DNA of 64,000 bases from Bacteroidia bacterium. GTDB taxonomy: Bacteria > Bacteroidota > Ignavibacteria > UBA10030. The notes under the pieces are model-generated. The model was not told where the DNA came from, did no database searches, and saw nothing but the letters and a program-made list of their open reading frames with translations. The position numbers were made by a program, and so were the translations under genes. Positions 12,675 through 22,050 of the stretch are shown here, piece by piece; the stretch's first letter is position 1; each line of letters starts with the position of its first letter. The stretch spans positions 1 to 64,000 of the forward strand of contig BQML01000014.1 in the NCBI GenBank assembly GCA_022180565.1. The letters are read 5' to 3'.

Positions 12675-12986
12675 TCAGTCGGTGATCGTAATAATCAATT
12701 TCTTCGCTGGGGGTTCCGGGCGGGTTTCGCGGAATCGAACCCCATCGGCAATGTTGCGCTTGTTGGAAACCAGGGTGTGGACAGACGCACGCACCGTTGC
12801 ACCGGGATCGAGGGAGGAGACGGTGACACGCCTGAGGGACGGGGATGCGATGTCGGACCCATAGGCCTTCAGTACCGCGAAGGTCACTTGTTGACGCGCC
12901 TGCGTACGATCCTGCGCCGATGCCAACCACGGAGCGACAAGGGTTGCGAAAACACCCACACCAAGCAATAGAGAAAGTCGCCTCAT
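12675..12986 (-). CDS. Small exported beta-rich protein, putative fibre subunit A
   Basis: 103 aa with a clear signal peptide (MRRLSLLLGVGVFATLVAPWLASAQ; cleavage after SAQ). The mature part of about 78 residues ends KKLIITITD, the same alternating hydrophobic end seen in five neighbouring proteins (RTITLTLTN, HTITFTIAN and so on). It is the shortest of the set and lacks the central region, so it may be a specialised terminal or adaptor subunit, or a reduced paralogue. It follows subunit B by 2 bp and is last in the block. Family not recognised; role inferred from context. Confidence 0.6.
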   Translation of the reverse strand: MRRLSLLLGVGVFATLVAPWLASAQDRTQARQQVTFAVLKAYGSDIASPSLRRVTVSSLDPGATVRASVHTLVSNKRNIADGVRFRETRPEPPAKKLIITITD

Positions 12987-12988
12987 GA

Positions 12989-13489
12989 TCAGTTCGTCAG
13001 GGTCAAAGTGATCGTTCTGGATTGTGTGGGTACCGAGCCTACAGAAGCATCGGCGGCAAAAACATACGAGATCGGTTGTGCGGATTCACTTCCCCTCGAG
13101 ATTCCTGTTACCGCATCAACCGGAGATGTGGCATTCGAGATATCCACCAATCCTGCACTGAACCCTCGTGTACTGGCAACGTTCACCATGAGCCGTGTTC
13201 CCGTCGGCATGGGATTGTCGATGGAGACAACAATTTTCATATTGTCAAGGTTCGTGGTGACGCTGTATGAGGTCGACTGATCCTCGACAGACATCAGCGA
13301 AGCACCAGCTACCGCATCAGACAGAATAAGGGATCCGGGGTTGCCGGACACCGCAATTTTTGTCACGGCTTTTACTTCGAGGCTAACGGATTGTTGGGCG
13401 GTCCCCTGCGCGTGGAGATCGAGAGCGCAGAGCGCCAACACAACCGCTGCAAGAGGGATGGATGGGCGGATCATCGAGCAAGAGATCAT
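12989..13489 (-). CDS. Exported beta-sandwich-like protein, putative fibre subunit B
   Basis: About 166 aa; I start it at the ATG at 13489 (MISCSMIRPS...) and note a second ATG at 13474. Signal peptide ends LHAQ. Mature sequence QSVSLEVKAVTKIAVSGNPG, then SVEDQSTSYSVTTNL, GLVDISNATSPVDAVTGI, ending RTITLTLTN. It is a clear paralogue of subunit F (19079-19579): both share KIA.SGNPG, DISNAT, AVTGI.RG and the C-terminal T.TLTLTN. No cysteine in the mature part. Predicted secreted beta-strand protein assembled with the usher-like protein encoded upstream. A TTGACA/TACATT promoter (13501-13530) may give it independent expression. Confidence 0.65.
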   Translation of the reverse strand: MISCSMIRPSIPLAAVVLALCALDLHAQGTAQQSVSLEVKAVTKIAVSGNPGSLILSDAVAGASLMSVEDQSTSYSVTTNLDNMKIVVSIDNPMPTGTRLMVNVASTRGFSAGLVDISNATSPVDAVTGISRGSESAQPISYVFAADASVGSVPTQSRTITLTLTN

Positions 13490-13500
13490 GGACTTCGCAC

Positions 13501-13530
13501 AATGTAGCGTAAAGTGTGTCCAAGTGTCAA
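13501..13530 (-). promoter_or_regulatory. Putative sigma-70-type promoter for subunits B and A
   Basis: On the minus strand TTGACA (13525-13530) is followed after 18 bp by TACATT (13501-13506). The start codon at 13489 would lie almost at the transcription start, so the second ATG at 13474 fits better with this promoter. It lies in the 218-bp gap between the usher-like gene and subunit B. Confidence 0.4.
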
Positions 13531-13690
13531 GCATCATGCTTCCTCTCATGCTGTTCCGTGCGCTGGGACAACGGATGCAAGGCTGATGCCAGAGGAAGAA
13601 AGCGATCCTCATTTTTCCCAGCAAAATCTCTTTTGTTTACAGGCCTTTCTTGGGGGTGAAGGAGGAGAGAAGGGAAAGAAGGAATGCCTG

Positions 13691-13705
13691 TTGTAATTTC
13701 TACAA
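13691..13705. repeat. 15-bp interrupted palindrome TTGTA-ATTTC-TACAA
   Basis: Two 5-bp arms (six if the outer G/C pair is counted) separated by ATTTC, 2 bp beyond the usher-like stop codon. Its minus-strand reading TTGTAGAAATTACAA differs at only two bases from the palindrome at 25113-25127 in front of the LytTR regulator gene. It could be a regulator site or a weak hairpin; no T-tract follows. Confidence 0.35.
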
Positions 13706-13707
13706 CA

Positions 13708-16698
13708 TCAATCGTGTGCAGGCTCCATTTCAAGCTTATAAAGCGTCCGACAGGCCAGTTCCGCTTCGGTAAGCGACGAGAAGAGCTCCACCTTCACGCG
13801 GTAGCGTACGCCAAGTCCCGGGACCGTCGCGCGTTCAATCGTCGCTTTCTTTCCCGTGACTCGTTCAGCAACGCGCACGCGCTCGACGGCCTTGCTTCGT
13901 GTTTGCCACGATGAGACCTGGAGGATGTAACCGTTGCGTTTCTCGTCGTAAGTAATCAAGCACGGGTTATTGTCCGGTGGGTCGGGAGCAACTCTGACCA
14001 CAGGAGTTTCCTCCGTGTGAATGATACGAATCGTTCGCCTGCGCGGGACGATATCGAATCGGATATCCTTTCGTTCCCCTGGCTCAACGACAATATTCAC
14101 AACCTCTGGATGCACTTCATGGAACGAGGGAATGTCGCCGCCCACGAGGCGAACCGTCCATTGACCAGGTGTGAGTTCAGCAAATTCAACGCGTCCGCGC
14201 GAATCGCTGACCCGTCTGCGAAGATCAGCACCCTTGACGGCCTCGACAAGAATACCCTGCCTCGGCCCGGCATCCACGACACTATCCCCGGGCTCTTGAA
14301 ACGCGTTCAACCGAATTTCAGCACTGATCGTCGCGCCGCGCACAATATTGAGAATCACCCTCTCCTCCCTCCCCTCCGTGACATTGACTTCCAACGGCAT
14401 CGGTTGACGCGTTATTCGATCGAGACCGACACTTCCCCGGTCCAGCACAAGATAATGACGCCCGGGCGGAAGAGGAACAGCAAACTCTCCCCGTGTATCA
14501 CTCATCCCCGCGGTATTTCCAATGTTCACCACCGCATTCACCACCGGCCGATCGTTCTCATCGAGCATAATGCCCACGAGGCGTCCTCCGCCTCCTTTCC
14601 GCTGGAGAGGAATGGCAAGGGGGACGGCGTACTGCAGAACATAGGCCAGATCATTGGTACGGATGGAGGGTACGAAAGAATTGTTTCTCAAGCGCAGGCT
14701 CACTTGATGGGTGTTGGGGAATTCGTGAAGCAGGGTAAGATCGAGCAAGAGAAAGTCCTGCCGAGTAAATGTCTGAAGCCGGCTCCAATAGAAGTTGCCC
14801 TGAAGGGAACTTCGCGCCCAAAGTCTGATGGCGGTTCCAACACTGACCGAAGTGCGCTGTTGATGCTCTGAAGTGTAAAGATTCTGTTCCTCGGCATACT
14901 CGAGGGAAACCGTGTACGTCTGGGAAGCGGACGGAGAGAATCCTGAGAACAAGGCATAGCGGCGGAAAGGAAAGCTTCCCCCCAGAAGATCGTTGCGCGT
15001 AACACCGAAATCCAGATCAGAATAGAGGTGAACACCGGCGAGCTCGTGACCTAGGCGGAGGCGTGCGATCTGCTCCGACCGGCGGTAGAGAGGTGTCGGA
15101 CGAAGATCTTCCTGAAGGGTTTGCCGATACGACACTGCGATCAGATTCGAATAGCCGGCTCCAATCTGCACGACCTGCTCGTAGGGAACGAAGGACAGCG
15201 CGCTGTCATTGTTGAGGTTTCGTCGCTCGGACCGAAAGTACGCCTCAGTTTGGAAGTTGCGAATCGGCTGAAGGTTCAGGGAAAGCGACCCTATGCTCAG
15301 ATCTCTGTAATATCCCTGATAACTTCCGCCCGCTTTCACGACGCGGGCATCAAATGCCCCCAAGGGGATACGAGCGCTGAATTGCCCCGCGAGGGCGTCA
15401 TCTCGCACACCCGCACTGTTGCTCACGCCGTACTCCAGGTCGACGGTCGTAGATTTTATCAGGGTTGCCTGCACCCTTACTGAGGATACTTCTGCGTTCC
15501 TCTGGTCCCGTTTTTCCAGATGCTGGACTCCGAAAGCGAATCCTCCAAGAGGTTCGTAGCGCACAAAGCCTCCGGCCTGCCGCTGACTTGGAGCATAGAA
15601 GCGGGATTCATTGTAGAACCCCCCCACGGTGGTTGATCCAAAGAAAGCAGTTCCGCCGCCGCCAAATCCGTAGCGGCTCAGTTCGGTCAACGGCGACAAG
15701 GAATACGTCCAATCTCCGAACCGAATCTCGCCAAACGTTGTCGAATACCGCACGCGGTACTCGTCGCGCAATCCGAGGGAGGATTGAGACTGGATGTCGG
15801 TCGTCCGGAGAAACAGTTCAAGCCTGTCGGTTCCCGCCTCAGACAGCGATCCCATGCCGCTGATTTCGACTTGGCCGCCCAGCCGTTCGCCCTCTCCCGC
15901 CGCGCGGGAGGCAATCTGGAGAGGATAGCGGTGAAATTCCTCTCCTCTTTCCAGGCGCCCGGGAATCACATCAACAACAGCCGATGTCCGTGATCGGACT
16001 GTGGAATCCGATCTCAGCACGGCTGTGAGCTCAATCGTGGTGGGTGTCGTGCCGGGGAGTGATTCCGGTGTTGAGACCCGTATGCGGACCCCCCTGTGCT
16101 GTCGCGGTCCGAGAGTAATTTCCGAAGAATCAGGAACGGCAGGAAAGCCTTGTGAATTTGCCGTTTTGACATCGATCTTTCCTCCAACATTTCCCTCGTT
16201 CACCACCTCGAAGAGCAGTTCGAACCGTTCTCCGCCTGCCACGTAGCGGGGAGCGTCAACGAGCTGGACATTGAGTTTTCGGAAGGGAACGATGACGATC
16301 GCGACTTTTGCTTCCGCCGACAGCGTCGTATCCGACGCGTCGGTTACACGGTAGCGGACTTCGTATTCCCCCGCCTCGGTTTCCGGGGGAAAAGAGAGTG
16401 TGACGAGGCGGACTTCTGATTTGCCGGCAGCCACCGTGTACCGCGGCTCGCGAAAAATGTTCTTCCACCCGCGCGGAAGCCCCATCGTTGCCCTAACGGT
16501 TTTGTTACGACGCGTTTGGTTTTCAACAACAAATCCGGTTGACACAACTGATCCTTCACGGATCTCCATCCGAGGGGATGCTGGGCGCACAACAAGGCCT
16601 TCCTCTGTTTGTGCACTTGCGCGGAACACGCAGAAAAGACCCAGAGCAAAAAAAATCCGGCCGAACAGGGCCGGGCGATATGGTGTTCTCCGTGTCAC
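13708..16698 (-). CDS. Large outer-membrane usher-like protein with Ig-like, barrel, CarboxypepD_reg-like and SPOR-like parts
   Basis: 996 aa with a signal peptide ending RASAQ. Residues about 35-250 look like two Ig-like NEW3-type domains (GFVVENQTRRNKTVRATMG; VNEGNVGGKIDVKT). Residues about 270-700 are alternating amphipathic strands rich in Gly, Tyr, Arg and Ser, as in a large outer-membrane beta-barrel (RYGFGGGGTAFFGSTTVGG; LRLRNNSFVPSIRTNDL). Residues about 715-800 resemble a carboxypeptidase-regulatory/usher C-terminal plug (GRLVGIMLDENDRPVVNAVV...DTRGEFAVPLPPG). The last 75 residues look SPOR-like (GYILQVSSWQTRSKAVERVR). Placed next to a periplasmic chaperone-like gene and six small exported subunits, it is best read as a divergent usher. 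It is not a recognised FimD homologue by eye; the role is inference. Confidence 0.65.
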   Translation of the reverse strand: MTRRTPYRPALFGRIFFALGLFCVFRASAQTEEGLVVRPASPRMEIREGSVVSTGFVVENQTRRNKTVRATMGLPRGWKNIFREPRYTVAAGKSEVRLVTLSFPPETEAGEYEVRYRVTDASDTTLSAEAKVAIVIVPFRKLNVQLVDAPRYVAGGERFELLFEVVNEGNVGGKIDVKTANSQGFPAVPDSSEITLGPRQHRGVRIRVSTPESLPGTTPTTIELTAVLRSDSTVRSRTSAVVDVIPGRLERGEEFHRYPLQIASRAAGEGERLGGQVEISGMGSLSEAGTDRLELFLRTTDIQSQSSLGLRDEYRVRYSTTFGEIRFGDWTYSLSPLTELSRYGFGGGGTAFFGSTTVGGFYNESRFYAPSQRQAGGFVRYEPLGGFAFGVQHLEKRDQRNAEVSSVRVQATLIKSTTVDLEYGVSNSAGVRDDALAGQFSARIPLGAFDARVVKAGGSYQGYYRDLSIGSLSLNLQPIRNFQTEAYFRSERRNLNNDSALSFVPYEQVVQIGAGYSNLIAVSYRQTLQEDLRPTPLYRRSEQIARLRLGHELAGVHLYSDLDFGVTRNDLLGGSFPFRRYALFSGFSPSASQTYTVSLEYAEEQNLYTSEHQQRTSVSVGTAIRLWARSSLQGNFYWSRLQTFTRQDFLLLDLTLLHEFPNTHQVSLRLRNNSFVPSIRTNDLAYVLQYAVPLAIPLQRKGGGGRLVGIMLDENDRPVVNAVVNIGNTAGMSDTRGEFAVPLPPGRHYLVLDRGSVGLDRITRQPMPLEVNVTEGREERVILNIVRGATISAEIRLNAFQEPGDSVVDAGPRQGILVEAVKGADLRRRVSDSRGRVEFAELTPGQWTVRLVGGDIPSFHEVHPEVVNIVVEPGERKDIRFDIVPRRRTIRIIHTEETPVVRVAPDPPDNNPCLITYDEKRNGYILQVSSWQTRSKAVERVRVAERVTGKKATIERATVPGLGVRYRVKVELFSSLTEAELACRTLYKLEMEPAHD

Positions 16699-16706
16699 TT
16701 TCCGTT

Positions 16707-17504
16707 CTACATCTGGAGAGTGTACTGAGCACCGAAGACGTCGTCCCCTCCCGCGTCGACGACCACGAGAGCTTTATAGGTTCCTTTCGGTACCTGACTC
16801 ATGTCGATAGTTTGTCTCACCGACGTCCCCGGATAGATCCTGTATCGTACGCCGCTGAATTTGCCGAGGGAAACGCCCTGCTCATTGAATAGTTCCACAT
16901 AAACTTCGGGCCGCATACCGAGGTCGCCGGTATTCTTGATGTCAATCTGAAAGACTCGCCCGCCCTTATCCCGGGCAAGGATGCGGGGGTTTTCAAACTC
17001 GACCGTTCGCGATCCCGTTCCCGCAATGTGGGTTGCTATCTGGATGCCGTACCGGATGGCCTGCATGATACCCATTTCCGCCTTGGCATCGCGGCGGGAG
17101 GATTCGGCGGACGATTTCGGGATTCCTTCAATCATCAGCATACTCCAGTAGGTACCCCTCAGCGATCCACCTTGGGGGACCGCCACCGAATAGCTCACGC
17201 TGACCGTGGCGTTCGGCGGAAGCGTTACGTAGGCCGGACTGAATGTGATCCAGCGTGCGTTCGATCGCGGATGAGAACCGGGTTCGTCGTACCTGTTCGT
17301 TCCATCGGAGAAAAAGAGATAGTCCGTCTGATACACTTTTGCCTCCTGCGGCTCGTCCGTGTCGTTGCGCACGAGGATGGTTCCCCGGTACTCTTCTCCG
17401 GGGCTGGCCTCGCGGTCCTGACTGAGTTCGCCCACAACGGAAACCTGCCCAGGGGCAAAGGAACATACAAGCAGGCCCAGAACTGGAAGGATCAAGAATT
17501 TCAT
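16707..17504 (-). CDS. Periplasmic pilus-chaperone-like protein
   Basis: 265 aa with a signal peptide ending CSFAPGQ. The first domain resembles the PapD-like N-terminal Ig domain: ASPGEEYRGTILVRNDTDEPQEAKVYQTDYLF, then WITFSPAYVTLPPNATVSVSYSVAVP..LRGTYWSMLMIEG, the pattern of a chaperone G1 strand and loop. The second domain (VEFENPRIL...FQIDIKNTGDLGMRPEVYVELF...TYKALVVVDAGGDDVFGAQYTL) resembles a second Ig-like domain. Length is close to the 230-250 aa of classical chaperones. Gene is 8 bp from the usher-like gene and 9 bp from subunit C. I infer that it holds subunits in the periplasm before delivery to the usher-like barrel. Confidence 0.65.
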   Translation of the reverse strand: MKFLILPVLGLLVCSFAPGQVSVVGELSQDREASPGEEYRGTILVRNDTDEPQEAKVYQTDYLFFSDGTNRYDEPGSHPRSNARWITFSPAYVTLPPNATVSVSYSVAVPQGGSLRGTYWSMLMIEGIPKSSAESSRRDAKAEMGIMQAIRYGIQIATHIAGTGSRTVEFENPRILARDKGGRVFQIDIKNTGDLGMRPEVYVELFNEQGVSLGKFSGVRYRIYPGTSVRQTIDMSQVPKGTYKALVVVDAGGDDVFGAQYTLQM

Positions 17505-17513
17505 GATTGTGCC

Positions 17514-18005
17514 TTATTGAGCGGAAATGGTGTAGGTGACCGTGTGAAGGTCGTCTCCCAGTTCGGCGCTATTGCCTTGAGAGAACGTTGCCGTGGCGGT
17601 ATAGTTCAGAGTGGCTGTTGCATTCGAGAAAAAACCAAACGGAATGTTGGTAATGAAATCTACCGGAGGCATCCCGTTGCTCAGTGTAACCTGAGGCGCC
17701 GCCGTCCCGGCGGTTACATTCGACGCAACGACCGTGAGACCGAAATTCTGGCCCGGACAGCTTGTCTGAACGGTGATCTTCTGAGTGTAGAGGGTTCGCC
17801 GGTAGCGCAATCGTGTCGCAGTATTCATCACGGGAAGAGGTTCGGAGCCGGCAAGGCCTGTGGTAATCGACAGAGTGACGTTGCCGCCCTGAATTGTGAT
17901 GGATTGTCCACTTGCGGCCTCGACTGCCAACAGGAAGAAGAAGAATCCGATGACACCGGCGGCAAGCGTTGACCCGAAGAATGGCCTTCCCTGTGTCGTC
18001 CTCAT
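17514..18005 (-). CDS. Exported protein, putative fibre subunit C
   Basis: 163 aa with a signal peptide (MRTTQGRPFFGSTLAAGVIG...ASGQ). Mature part: SITIQGGNVTLSITTGLAGSEPLPVMN, a central region with one cysteine (TVQTSCPGQNFGLTV), GNSAELGDDLHTVTYTISAQ at the end. The C-terminal strand pattern matches its neighbours. A single cysteine excludes the intramolecular disulfide of classical type 1 pilins. It lies 9 bp upstream of the chaperone-like gene and 5 bp downstream of subunit D. Family not recognised; subunit role inferred. Confidence 0.6.
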   Translation of the reverse strand: MRTTQGRPFFGSTLAAGVIGFFFFLLAVEAASGQSITIQGGNVTLSITTGLAGSEPLPVMNTATRLRYRRTLYTQKITVQTSCPGQNFGLTVVASNVTAGTAAPQVTLSNGMPPVDFITNIPFGFFSNATATLNYTATATFSQGNSAELGDDLHTVTYTISAQ

Positions 18006-18010
18006 GGTGG

Positions 18011-18493
18011 TTATTGATTCGCGATGGTGAACGTGATGGTGTGGGCATCCGATCCTGCCCCTTGCGATGCCAAAGCTTCTCCCACATATCGGATCGAACA
18101 GGTTCCGGAACTGCGGCCGATGTTCAGAAGAAAATCCCGAGCGACGGATGACAGAACAACTTGTCCCGCGGCGGTTCCCTGCGTTGGGCCGAGGGCTTCG
18201 ACTTTAAGCGTGTATTTCGGAGATGCCAGGTTCGACTGCACCGTAACCTTCTTTCCGCTGCTGTTCGTGCCCCAGAGGAGGGAGGTCGATTGATCGACGA
18301 CGGTCATCAGATCCTGACCGGCAATCACGCCTGCTCCGGTGATTGTGAGGTTGACGGTTCCTGAACTCACTTTCAGCGCGGTGATGACGGCAACGCTGAC
18401 GCGCACGGTATGATTGTGGCTTTGAGCGCCCGCCGTGGAGTACGCCACAGCCGCCACAGCAAGGAGAGTCGGAAGGTACGGGATTCGCATCAT
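18011..18493 (-). CDS. Exported protein, putative fibre subunit D
   Basis: About 160 aa; I choose the ATG at 18493 (MMRIPYLPTLLAVAAVAYS) because it gives a clean signal peptide ending AGAQ; the open frame extends further upstream without a good start. Mature sequence NHTVRVSVAVITALKVSSGTVNLTITGAG, MTVVDQSTSLLWGTNSSGKKVTVQS, SSGTCSIRYVGEALASQG, ending HTITFTIANQ. One cysteine. The DQST motif and C-terminal strand recur in subunit B (DQSTSYSV). No strong Shine-Dalgarno. Confidence 0.6.
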   Translation of the reverse strand: MMRIPYLPTLLAVAAVAYSTAGAQSHNHTVRVSVAVITALKVSSGTVNLTITGAGVIAGQDLMTVVDQSTSLLWGTNSSGKKVTVQSNLASPKYTLKVEALGPTQGTAAGQVVLSSVARDFLLNIGRSSGTCSIRYVGEALASQGAGSDAHTITFTIANQ

Positions 18494-18537
18494 GGAACGA
18501 CGTAATATATGCCGGGCAATCATAACATTCAAGGAGG

Positions 18538-18999
18538 TTAGCTGTTTGTAACCGTATAGATAATCTGCACCGGCGGGGAATCCGCCACCTGGGGAGAAAT
18601 TACAGTAAATTCGACCACGCAACTGCCGGCTGATCGTTCCAGACCGTAGAGCAGGTCGATGGTTGCCGGCCCTGTCAGTTCAACACTTTGGGTAGCCGCG
18701 ATCCGATGGTCCATGTCCCGAAGGGTGATGCGGATGCCGGCAGTGTGCGGCGGACGTTGCGCCACTGTGATCTTTTTTTCGTTTCCGTTGCTTGTCCATA
18801 CAAGCCTTGAGATCGCCTCCCGGGCCGATTGCATTTCGACGGCGGGCACGGTGGGCGAAACGGAGAGTGCATTCAGCTCAGCAACGTGGAGCAGGAGTCT
18901 TTGATGGATGGCCGATTGCTGAGCGTGGACCGCGGGGATTGTCAGGAACCACAGCAGGATTGCGCAGAGGCGGGGCATTATGGTGATTCTGGTTTTCAT
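18538..18999 (-). CDS. Exported protein, putative fibre subunit E
   Basis: 153 aa from the ATG at 18999 (MKTRITIMPRLCAILLWFL); signal peptide ends VHAQ. Mature part: RLLLHVAELNALSVSPTVP, EAISRLVWTSNGNEKKITVAQRPP (compare LLWGTNSSGKKVTVQ in subunit D), AGSCVVEFTVISPQ, ending VQIIYTVTNS. The shared W.(S/T)N..(G/E)KK(V/I)TV element shows that D and E are paralogues. One cysteine. The gene is second from the operon start, 79 bp after subunit F. Confidence 0.6.
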   Translation of the reverse strand: MKTRITIMPRLCAILLWFLTIPAVHAQQSAIHQRLLLHVAELNALSVSPTVPAVEMQSAREAISRLVWTSNGNEKKITVAQRPPHTAGIRITLRDMDHRIAATQSVELTGPATIDLLYGLERSAGSCVVEFTVISPQVADSPPVQIIYTVTNS

Positions 19000-19078
19000 G
19001 ACATAAGCCCTCAATAAGCGAATGCCCGCAGCAGACTCCTCCCAGATGATCCGCCACGGGCATCCTTGAATCTGACCC

Positions 19079-19579
19079 TTAGTTGGTAAGAGTCAGCGTA
19101 ACGATTCTTGACGTTGAGGCCAGCGGGCCGGCTGATGCAGAGGCCGAGAACGTATAGGTGATCGTCTGTCCGGCATCGGCACCGCGTTGAATACCTGTGA
19201 CCACATCAACTGCTGAACCGGAGGTCGCGTTGGAGATGTCAACGTTACCGGCACTCGTCCCCTTCGTGCTGGCAAGGCCGAGGTTCAGCTGATAGCCCGC
19301 CGGAAGAGCCGCGTCCATATGGGCCGTGATCTTCACCGTGTTGCCGAAGTTCTGCGTAATGCTGTAGGTTGTCGAGTTATCCGTAACCGCATTCAGAGCA
19401 TCAACGCCGGCTGTTCCGGTTGTGATCGTCAAGGGACCGGGGTTTCCGGAAGTGGCGATCTTGTAAACCGTGTTTACTGCCAATGTCACGTTCTGCGTGG
19501 CCGTGGCTTGTGCAAACGCTGAGGCGGAGAGGGCCACACTCAGCATCGCAATCATCGAAATCGCAGTAGTCTTTTTCAT
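19079..19579 (-). CDS. Exported protein, putative major fibre subunit F
   Basis: 166 aa, start ATG 19579 with an AAGGAG Shine-Dalgarno seven bases upstream, the best in this block. Signal peptide MKKTTAISMIAMLSVALSA...FAQ. Mature part starts TATQNVTLAVNTVYKIATSGNPG and ends RIVTLTLTN; it is Ala/Thr/Ser/Gly-rich, cysteine-free and low in charge, like many major fibre subunits. It is first in the operon, preceded by the sigma-54-like element and followed by a 79-bp gap, which would allow higher expression than the downstream genes. Close paralogue of subunit B. The fold resembles fimbrial-type beta sandwiches such as the spore-coat-U/DUF4402 group only in general plan. Confidence 0.65.
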   Translation of the reverse strand: MKKTTAISMIAMLSVALSASAFAQATATQNVTLAVNTVYKIATSGNPGPLTITTGTAGVDALNAVTDNSTTYSITQNFGNTVKITAHMDAALPAGYQLNLGLASTKGTSAGNVDISNATSGSAVDVVTGIQRGADAGQTITYTFSASASAGPLASTSRIVTLTLTN

Positions 19580-19637: not shown

Positions 19638-19653
19638 GTCAAGACCCGTGCCA
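19638..19653 (-). promoter_or_regulatory. Sigma-54-like -24/-12 promoter of the fibre operon
   Basis: Minus strand reads TGGCACG-GGTC-TTGAC. The -24 box TGGCACG is a perfect match to the RpoN consensus and the -12 box TTGA differs from TTGC in one base; spacing GG-N10-G(A) is correct. The transcription start would be near 19627, giving a leader of about 48 bases to the subunit F start codon. The neighbouring activator at 20671 has the GAFTGA loop required to act on sigma-54 polymerase. The -12 mismatch (A for C) is the weak point. Confidence 0.55.
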
Positions 19654-19844: not shown

Positions 19845-19889
19845 GGAGAACATTCCAAATGGCCCATTTTGTCGGGCTTCACGGCTGGC

Positions 19890-20666
19890 ATGGAGATTGC
19901 GCTTACTATTGAGGATCAATTTCAATCATTGTTTAACGAGTACAACAAAATGAAACACAATCATGCCAGCCTTACGCTTGCGAGTATTGAGCGATTGCAT
20001 GGAACGGAGCTCGCGAGAATCTCTCATGCTTTGAAGACACCCCTGACCTCCATCATTGGCTTTACATCGGCGATCCTCGACGACGCGACGATAGACAGAA
20101 AAACCTGTGCTGAGTTCGTCAGGATTATCAAGACAGAAAGTGAACGGCTTTCGCGATTCGTGGAAGAGCTTCTGTATGTGTCTTTCGCGAATCCGGACAC
20201 ACCGCCGGCGTTGAAACAGAGGACCTCTCCGTCTACGGTCATGAGAACAGCTGTCCGGCTGGCCGCAACGACGTTGAACCAGCCTCAGAGCCGGTTTATT
20301 CTGAAAGAGATGGACCATGTGGAAACACCGGTCGAGCTTGACCGCGAATTTGTCACAAAGATGCTGGTGAATGTGTTCAGCAATGCCGCCCGATTCTCGC
20401 CCGGCATCGGCTCCATTTCCATCACCGGGCACCTGCAGGAAAACTTTTTCGTCTGCAGGGTCGCTTCGCGGCGGCGCGGACGAAATCTCGACATTCGAAC
20501 TACCCCCGGGAACCTTTCTGCGACTGATATCGAGGCATTGGGCCTGGCCCGGACAAGACACATGCTGGCTCTCCGGGGCGGCAGCCTTACCATTGTTCCT
20601 GCCCCAGGCCCGGAAACTACCGTCGAAGTGTGTCTCCCAGTTTCTCTGACTGCAACCAACGAGTAA
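19890..20666 (+). CDS. Cytosolic histidine kinase with degenerate ATP-binding domain
   Basis: Sensor kinase partner of the downstream activator (stop 4 bp before its ATG). From the ATG at 19890 (MEIALTIEDQFQSLF) it has 258 aa; a TTG at 19869 would add seven. There is no membrane segment and no recognisable sensor domain, only a short helical start. H-box LARISHALKTPLTSIIGF carries the phospho-acceptor His; N-box MLVNVFSNAARFSPG is recognisable. The G1 DxGxG motif is missing: the expected place reads VASRRRGRNLDI, and the G2 region reads IEALGLARTRHMLALRGG. It may therefore bind ATP poorly, or act mainly as a phosphatase or with another kinase. Neither candidate start has a good Shine-Dalgarno. 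Confidence 0.8.
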   Translation: MEIALTIEDQFQSLFNEYNKMKHNHASLTLASIERLHGTELARISHALKTPLTSIIGFTSAILDDATIDRKTCAEFVRIIKTESERLSRFVEELLYVSFANPDTPPALKQRTSPSTVMRTAVRLAATTLNQPQSRFILKEMDHVETPVELDREFVTKMLVNVFSNAARFSPGIGSISITGHLQENFFVCRVASRRRGRNLDIRTTPGNLSATDIEALGLARTRHMLALRGGSLTIVPAPGPETTVEVCLPVSLTATNE

Positions 20667-20670
20667 CGAA

Positions 20671-22050
20671 ATGACCAAACCTCTTCTCTACATTGTCGAC
20701 GACGAGGCTACGATCAGCAGACTCTTGGAGCATTGGGTTACGAAACGGTGGGGTTATGACGCCCAGGTGTTTTCGACCGGCGAGGAATGCCTTGAACATC
20801 TTCACAATGACCCTGATCTGATCCTCCTGGACATCATGATGCCCGGCATGGGGGGAATTGAAACACTGAAAGAGCTTAAGCGCCGGTCTCCCGACATTCC
20901 GGTGATCATGCTCTCGGCCCAGGGAGACATCCAAGTTGCAATCGAGTCCCTCAAGCTCGGCGCATCCGACTATTTCGGCAAACCGATCGATTTTCCAAAA
21001 CTCGAAATCGCAACCCGCACGATCCTTCAGCTCCGCACAGTGTCGCGGGAAGTCTCTCAATTGAAGGAGCAAATCAAGCGTGAAGTGCATTTCGAGAACA
21101 TCATTGCCTCTGGCAGCGAGATGCGGGAGGTCTTCAAACTCGTGAACAAGGTTAAGGATGCAGATATCCCTGTCCTCGTTATGGGAGAAAGCGGCACGGG
21201 AAAGGAACTGATTTCACGCGCTATACACTTTCACGGGAAACGGAAGGATGCCCCCTTTGTTGTGGTTAATTGCGCTTCGATTCCACACGAACTGCTCGAA
21301 AGCGAGCTCTTCGGGCACGAAAAGGGCGCATTTACCGGTGCATACCAGCGCCGCATCGGCCGATTTGAACAGGCCAACGGCGGCACACTGTTCATGGACG
21401 AAATTGGGGAAATGGACCTGAGCCTCCAAGCGAAACTTCTCAGAGTCCTGCAAACAAAGGAATTCGAACGAGTGGGGGGAAACGAGACGATCACAGCGGA
21501 TGTTCGTCTGGTCTCTGCAACCAACAGGGATCTCCGCGAGGAAGTGCGTCAAAAGCGCTTCCGGGAAGACCTGTTCTTTCGAGTGGCGGCGTTTCCGATT
21601 CTCATCCCTCCTTTACGCCAGCGCAAGACTGACATCCTTCTGCTCGCAGAGCATTTTCTGCGCCGCTTTGGCGCCGATCAGTCCCGGACCGATCTGCGTT
21701 TCAGCCGCGAGGCGCTTAAGCTCTTGTACGAATACCCGTGGCCCGGGAACGTCCGGGAACTGGAAAACGCGATCCAACGTGCGGTTGTCATGTCCGAAGG
21801 ATCAGAGATTCATGAACGCGATCTCCCGCTCGCCCTTCAGAGTTTTTCCCGACCCCCCGTTACACCGTCGTCCTCCGTTTTTGATCCACCGGAGGATGGT
21901 GACATTGTTCCCATGGAAAAAGTGAAGGAAGCTGCCATCCGCCATGCCCTCAAGGTAACCAACGGTAACATTGTCGAGGCATCCTCGCGGCTCCGAATCG
22001 GCCGTGCGACGTTCTATCGCTTAATGAAGCGGTACAAGATCAGTTCCTGA
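20671..22050 (+). CDS. NtrC-family sigma-54-dependent response regulator
   Basis: 459-aa transcription activator in the usual three-domain layout. Residues 1-120: receiver with acidic pocket VDDE, phospho-acceptor Asp in LILLDIMMPGMGG, and Lys in FGKPIDF. Residues about 145-385: AAA+ domain with Walker A GESGTGKE, the sigma-54-contacting GAFTGA loop, Walker B GGTLFMDEIGEM and the FREDLFFRV region. Residues about 425-459: Fis-type helix-turn-helix (NIVEASSRLRIGRATFYRLMKRY). It should bind upstream sites and remodel RpoN polymerase; the sigma-54-like promoter 1 kb away in front of the fibre operon is the obvious target. Followed by a strong terminator. Confidence 0.95.
   Translation: MTKPLLYIVDDEATISRLLEHWVTKRWGYDAQVFSTGEECLEHLHNDPDLILLDIMMPGMGGIETLKELKRRSPDIPVIMLSAQGDIQVAIESLKLGASDYFGKPIDFPKLEIATRTILQLRTVSREVSQLKEQIKREVHFENIIASGSEMREVFKLVNKVKDADIPVLVMGESGTGKELISRAIHFHGKRKDAPFVVVNCASIPHELLESELFGHEKGAFTGAYQRRIGRFEQANGGTLFMDEIGEMDLSLQAKLLRVLQTKEFERVGGNETITADVRLVSATNRDLREEVRQKRFREDLFFRVAAFPILIPPLRQRKTDILLLAEHFLRRFGADQSRTDLRFSREALKLLYEYPWPGNVRELENAIQRAVVMSEGSEIHERDLPLALQSFSRPPVTPSSSVFDPPEDGDIVPMEKVKEAAIRHALKVTNGNIVEASSRLRIGRATFYRLMKRYKISS

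Follow-up and report, generated by a model that had tools for sequence, protein, structure and literature searches.

An eight-gene cassette of an Ignavibacteria genome that probably encodes a surface fiber assembled by a chaperone-usher-like route

The Fim, Pap, Caf1, and Csu pili are encoded by a set of subunits, a chaperone of two Ig domains, and a large barrel with flanking periplasmic domains; their subunits carry an N-terminal strand, except for one that begins without it. The CS1/CFA/I (CfaA-CfaB-CfaC) and Ecp systems, as well as the DUF4402-type cassettes of Bacteroidota, are further points of comparison. In the WxL cluster of Firmicutes, the protein WxLIP (DUF916/DUF3324) binds and stabilizes WxL at the cell wall and has a transmembrane helix at its C terminus as an anchor (PMC10599100). 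A gene cassette with likenesses to each of these systems was found in the analyzed window, a stretch of 64,000 nucleotides from a Bacteroidia bacterium assigned to the Ignavibacteria (GCA_022180565.1, contig BQML01000014.1). It shares with the Fim, Pap, Caf1, and Csu pili all of the features listed above, and the chaperone and usher folds match as well. In contrast to these pili, its barrel is plugless, with 26 strands predicted rather than 24, and carries two N-terminal NEW3-like Ig domains and a SPOR tail. The cassette also differs from them in the lack of matches to PF00577 or PF00345, in unrelated subunit sequences, and in the presence of a mini-subunit.

The cassette consists of eight tightly packed minus-strand genes (19579 to 12675), here named F-E-D-C-K-U-B-A in order from the promoter; all eight are present with the positions, strand, and order given in a preliminary description of this DNA. 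The first gene, F (19079..19579), encodes a major-type subunit of 166 aa composed of a signal peptide, the N-terminal strand ATATQNVTLAVNTVYKI, and a core. Minor subunits with an N-terminal strand are encoded by E (18538..18999; 153 aa) and D (18011..18493; 160 aa). The gene for C (17514..18005; 163 aa), a tip-type subunit without this strand, adjoins that for K (16707..17504; 265 aa), a periplasmic chaperone-like protein with two Ig domains of WxLIP/PapD-like fold. U (13708..16698; 996 aa, GTG start) is an usher-like outer-membrane barrel. It is followed by B (12989..13474), a paralog of F with an N-terminal strand, for which 13474 is the best start choice, giving 161 aa. The last gene, A (12675..12986), encodes a mini-subunit of 103 aa that keeps N- and C-terminal strands, has no core, and is a candidate terminator or anchor. 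We estimate at roughly 0.7 the probability that these eight genes form one operon for a surface fiber built by a chaperone-usher-like route.

Signal peptides were found on F, E, D, C, B, and A, and an alternating T-x-T strand closes each of these proteins. In an alignment of 104 subunit sequences, two positions of this common strand, T161 and T163, are nearly invariant. Sequence comparison places F, E, D, C, and B in a single family, in which F and B share 47% identity and a mutual match links D with E via their relatives. The shared terminal strand and both paralogies had been proposed in the preliminary description, together with a count of one or no cysteine per subunit, which the mature sequences bear out. 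The subunits belong to no credible Pfam or NCBIfam family and are unrelated by sequence to the DUF4402 or FimA families; NCBIfam provided no usable name for the proteins of the cluster.

Two classes of subunits were distinguished by the length of the stretch between signal peptide and core, counted from cleavage sites predicted by a simple rule of our own. In the window, this stretch comprises about 12–20 residues in all family subunits (F, E, D, and B) except C. The same division was found in loci from many phyla: the K-adjacent subunit has at most three residues before the core in 20 of 23 loci, vs. at least 12 residues in 58 of the 61 other subunits, and the length distribution is bimodal. 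The stretch of F shows hydrophobic alternation at positions 31, 33, and 35 (score 4.75 vs. 3.81 for shuffles), and its strand (QNVTLAVNTVYKIA) can be set beside the N-terminal strand of the classical pilin FimG (ADVTITVNGKVVAK). The presence or absence of an N-terminal strand is the donor-strand pattern of shaft and tip subunits, and these sequences suggest that the strand would be donated between neighboring subunits. Of the eight strands in the model of C, two are very short, and the count is compatible with either a complete or an incomplete Ig fold.

In loci from outside Ignavibacteria, the subunit encoded beside K is often a member of another, unrelated-looking family, whose proteins also begin directly at the core. 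Members of this family (A7 alignment; L066, L070, L081, L089, and others) share invariant W and R residues, have no Pfam match, and are candidate tip adhesins. The homologs of A keep the SxASQxVTFxV strand and the C-terminal VTxTE strand, and their middle part is variable and core-less; the homolog in L035 is almost full length (152 aa). Judging from its sequence, the makeup of A, a strand with no globular core, might fit a chain terminator.

The structure of U was modeled by AlphaFold2 with 47 homologs (pLDDT 88.3). The model contains two Ig domains (residues 35–245), a 26-strand barrel (255–700), two C-terminal Ig-like domains (705–885), and a SPOR-like domain (913–988); as in ushers, the barrel is flanked by N-terminal and two C-terminal periplasmic domains. 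This confident model agrees with the earlier proposal of a 996-residue barrel protein. The plug-like domain proposed with it is absent: no insert of more than 14 residues occurs between strands across 255–700. The sole above-threshold Pfam match of U, CarboxypepD_reg (707–753), was considered as a plug and rejected because it lies C-terminal to the barrel in the model. Below the threshold, NEW3-like, porin (weak Porin_4), and SPOR matches were found.

Matches to PF00577 were found neither in U nor in any of the 41 relatives, with a positive E. coli control, and a direct phmmer search of U against PDB produced no match. CooC_C was matched by three U members (best E 1.3e-5). The profile of U reached 46% against E. 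coli ushers vs. 8% for a reversed control, a difference that is suggestive at most, and 4.5% probability against EcpC. In the fold comparison by Foldseek against PDB, the best seven matches of U are all FimD (E down to 2.4e-15), followed by PapC (5e-11) and by porins and BtuB (about 1e-6); the TM-scores, normalized on target length, are modest (0.31–0.40). The porin-type matches, the weak Porin_4 match, and the presence of SPOR and Ig domains would also suit a porin that exports something else, such as a polysaccharide or other proteins, with the small proteins as periplasmic or surface accessories. We hold this to be highly improbable, since usher folds match U far better, the genes recurring with U are those for K and the subunits, and a polymer would suit the multiplicity of subunits, F being present in as many as five copies.

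For K, a C-K chain was modeled in which the stop of C was read as glycine to fold both proteins together; this chain is not a biological product. The subunits were aligned to it with the help of in-frame C-K rows from relatives. The model is confident for each part, has a pTM of 0.61, and reports the folds rather than C-K contacts. The two-Ig chaperone-like protein of the preliminary description is recovered with a pLDDT of 90.4. The top PDB folds are WxLIP (9i25/9i1y), then CfaA, CsuC, Caf1M, DraB, SafB, and FimC, so that the chaperones near K span the alternative, archaic, and classical kinds; the Foldseek TM-score, normalized on target length, is a modest 0.55 or so.

By sequence, WxLIP_PGBD/PF06030 was matched by 24 of 67 K members (best PF06030 E 2.8e-5, in A2), and one Bacteroidota relative lies above the cut-off. 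K of the window itself has no DUF916-DUF3324 match in the Pfam search. The profile of K matches E. faecium WxLIP1 in PDB at 1.7e-4, and its R-x-x-Y/RY strand region aligns with WxLIP. Neither PF00345 nor PF02753 was matched by K, and PapD_N was found in none of the 41 relatives, again with a positive E. coli control. The mismatch with the classical families, suspected earlier by eye, is seen with both the usher and the chaperone models. Direct phmmer of K against PDB gave no match, the similarity to E. coli chaperones is weak (22%), and the probability against EcpB is 0.5%. Both sequence and fold identify WxLIP, rather than PapD, as the nearest relative of K.

This relationship, seen in the PDB profile match, the WxLIP_PGBD matches, and the top folds, could mean that the cassette is a diderm counterpart of the Gram-positive WxL complex, in which K stabilizes small surface domains as a coat or adhesive patch, no donor-strand fiber is formed, and U serves as the passage through the outer membrane. 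This alternative appears decidedly unlikely: none of the 104 subunits matches a WxL domain, and neither two classes of subunits, one of them lacking the N-terminal strand, nor an usher-type barrel has a place in the WxL picture. Unlike WxLIP, K is exported as a soluble protein, and its gene lies beside that of an outer-membrane barrel.

K is also linked to PapD, through an indirect chain of sequence similarities. A second group of chaperone-like proteins, herein referred to as K', aligns with K over 250 columns with 94% probability, and a single protein (G083:C31) is matched by the K, K', and PapD_N models alike. K' proteins adjoin usher-like barrels (U') and in some cases DUF4402 subunits. 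One locus, L047 (3521-10700 in G008), contains a DUF4402 subunit, a K'-type chaperone, and a second usher-like barrel that bears TPR as well as the SPOR tail seen in U, and ends with B- and A-like subunits of the K-U system. The DUF4402-type cassettes of Bacteroidota are therefore similar to the cassette of the window in the homology of K' to K and, in L047, in the SPOR tail and in subunits resembling B and A. They differ from it in that U' matches U in the SPOR tail alone and the main subunits are DUF4402 proteins.

Sixteen of the 41 relatives, all of the same family, carry U, and the genome to which the window belongs has one copy. The order of the cassette is the same in about 14 relatives, in which F is present as one to five tandem copies. 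The profile of K identified 71 loci, whose record titles include Ignavibacteria, Deltaproteobacteria, Spirochaetales, Nitrospirae, Rhodothermales, Planctomycetota, Verrucomicrobia, Armatimonadetes, Elusimicrobia, Zixibacteriota, and Bacteroidia, as well as the purple sulfur bacteria Thiocapsa, Thiohalocapsa, and Thiococcus; single titles may be wrong because many of these loci come from MAGs. A K locus was also found on a Deinococcus plasmid. For 66 of the 73 K genes, the next gene is U. Among further arrangements, U overlaps K in L081, a subunit lies between them in L118, and the order is reversed in L088. The recurrence of the order and the linkage of K with U indicate that the gene set is not due to chance; neither the absence of a barrel nor that of co-occurrence in relatives, both of which the preliminary description had named as dangers to its reading, was observed. 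No description of the cassette was found in the open-access literature searched, and an earlier one may exist elsewhere.

Several loci have features of their own. At L044/L063, one cassette contains five F-type genes in tandem, and most of these are preceded by a promoter-like element of their own; Emticicia sp. CRIBPO (L119) has two cassettes, one after the other. A locus on Deinococcus deserti plasmid 2 (L123, 7435-11283) is a likely cassette annotated as a FimB/Mfa2 fimbrial subunit and a carboxypeptidase regulatory-like protein. In four Chlorobi-like loci (L105, L111, L177, and L178), K occurs without U, with a gene of 490–500 aa before K and one of 560–620 aa after it; the K family may serve a different purpose there.

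Upstream of the cassette, a sigma54-like -24/-12 element, TGGCACGGGTCTTGA, was found on the minus strand (19639..19653), its first base lying 74 nt before the start codon of F. It follows the pattern TGGCAC-N5-TTGA, with TTGA rather than TTGC as the -12 part, and shuffled sequence attains its score in 0.5% of cases. Most of the relatives examined also have such an element ahead of F, as a rule one for each tandem copy. Divergently from the cassette, on the plus strand, lie genes for a histidine-kinase-like protein (19869..20666) and an NtrC-type sigma54 activator (20671..22050); orthologs of the latter (60–67%) lie beside the cassette in five relatives. The theme of a promoter element with an NtrC-type regulator was observed in the window and in L031, L035, L037, L039, L042, L044, and L047.

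The following scheme is proposed for the assembly of the fiber. The neighboring two-component system would turn the operon on via the sigma54-type promoter, as the conserved sites suggest. Each subunit would be exported by Sec and held in the periplasm by K, which would bind it and pass it to the outer-membrane barrel U, the presumed site of polymerization and of passage to the cell surface. C, having no N-terminal strand, would begin the chain and form its tip. Next in the chain would be E, D, and F, the last in many copies, with the N-terminal strand of each completing the preceding subunit by donor-strand exchange. B and then A would close the fiber at its base; A would stop growth because it keeps a donor strand but lacks a core into which a further strand could fit. 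Through its SPOR-like tail, U may anchor the platform to peptidoglycan. The gene set, the folds, and the subunit classes together support an assembly line of this type, and the cassette very probably works like a chaperone-usher system. The chaperone-usher logic with unfamiliar sequences put forward in the preliminary description is thus upheld by the FimD/PapC and chaperone folds, the strand classes, and the gene order, and it loses the plug-like domain.

We advise against listing the cassette among the classical members, since the defining sequence models find no match and the plug is missing. It is similar to CS1/CFA/I and Ecp in that CfaA is among the best folds for K and three U members resemble CooC_C; it differs from them in the low profile probabilities for EcpB and EcpC and in subunits lacking Pfam matches. 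The closeness of K to CfaA (alternative) and CsuC (archaic) and the CooC_C matches of U would be expected if the cassette were an ordinary divergent branch of the archaic or alternative families with the standard mechanism and no class of its own. Such a placement, which differs from our preferred reading in classification alone and has the mechanism in common with it, seems rather unlikely in view of the missing plug, the lack of PF00577 and PapD_N matches in 41 relatives, the unrelatedness of the subunits to DUF4402 and FimA, and the nearness of K to WxLIP. A bolder classification, which we advance tentatively and at slightly less than even odds, is that the cassette belongs to an additional, ancient lineage of machines for donor-strand assembly, whose usher would be plugless and anchored by SPOR and whose chaperone would be of the WxLIP type. 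This lineage would be present in more than ten phyla and missed by current models, and WxLIP proteins would be evolutionary cousins of fimbrial chaperones. If the fiber is indeed built as proposed, chaperone-usher-like assembly would extend far past the bacteria in which it is annotated, given that 0 of 41 relatives match PF00577 or PF00345. An usher without a plug would make the gating of such pores a testable question, and WxL-interacting proteins would be linked to pilus chaperones. Widespread genes now listed as hypothetical would also receive names and roles.
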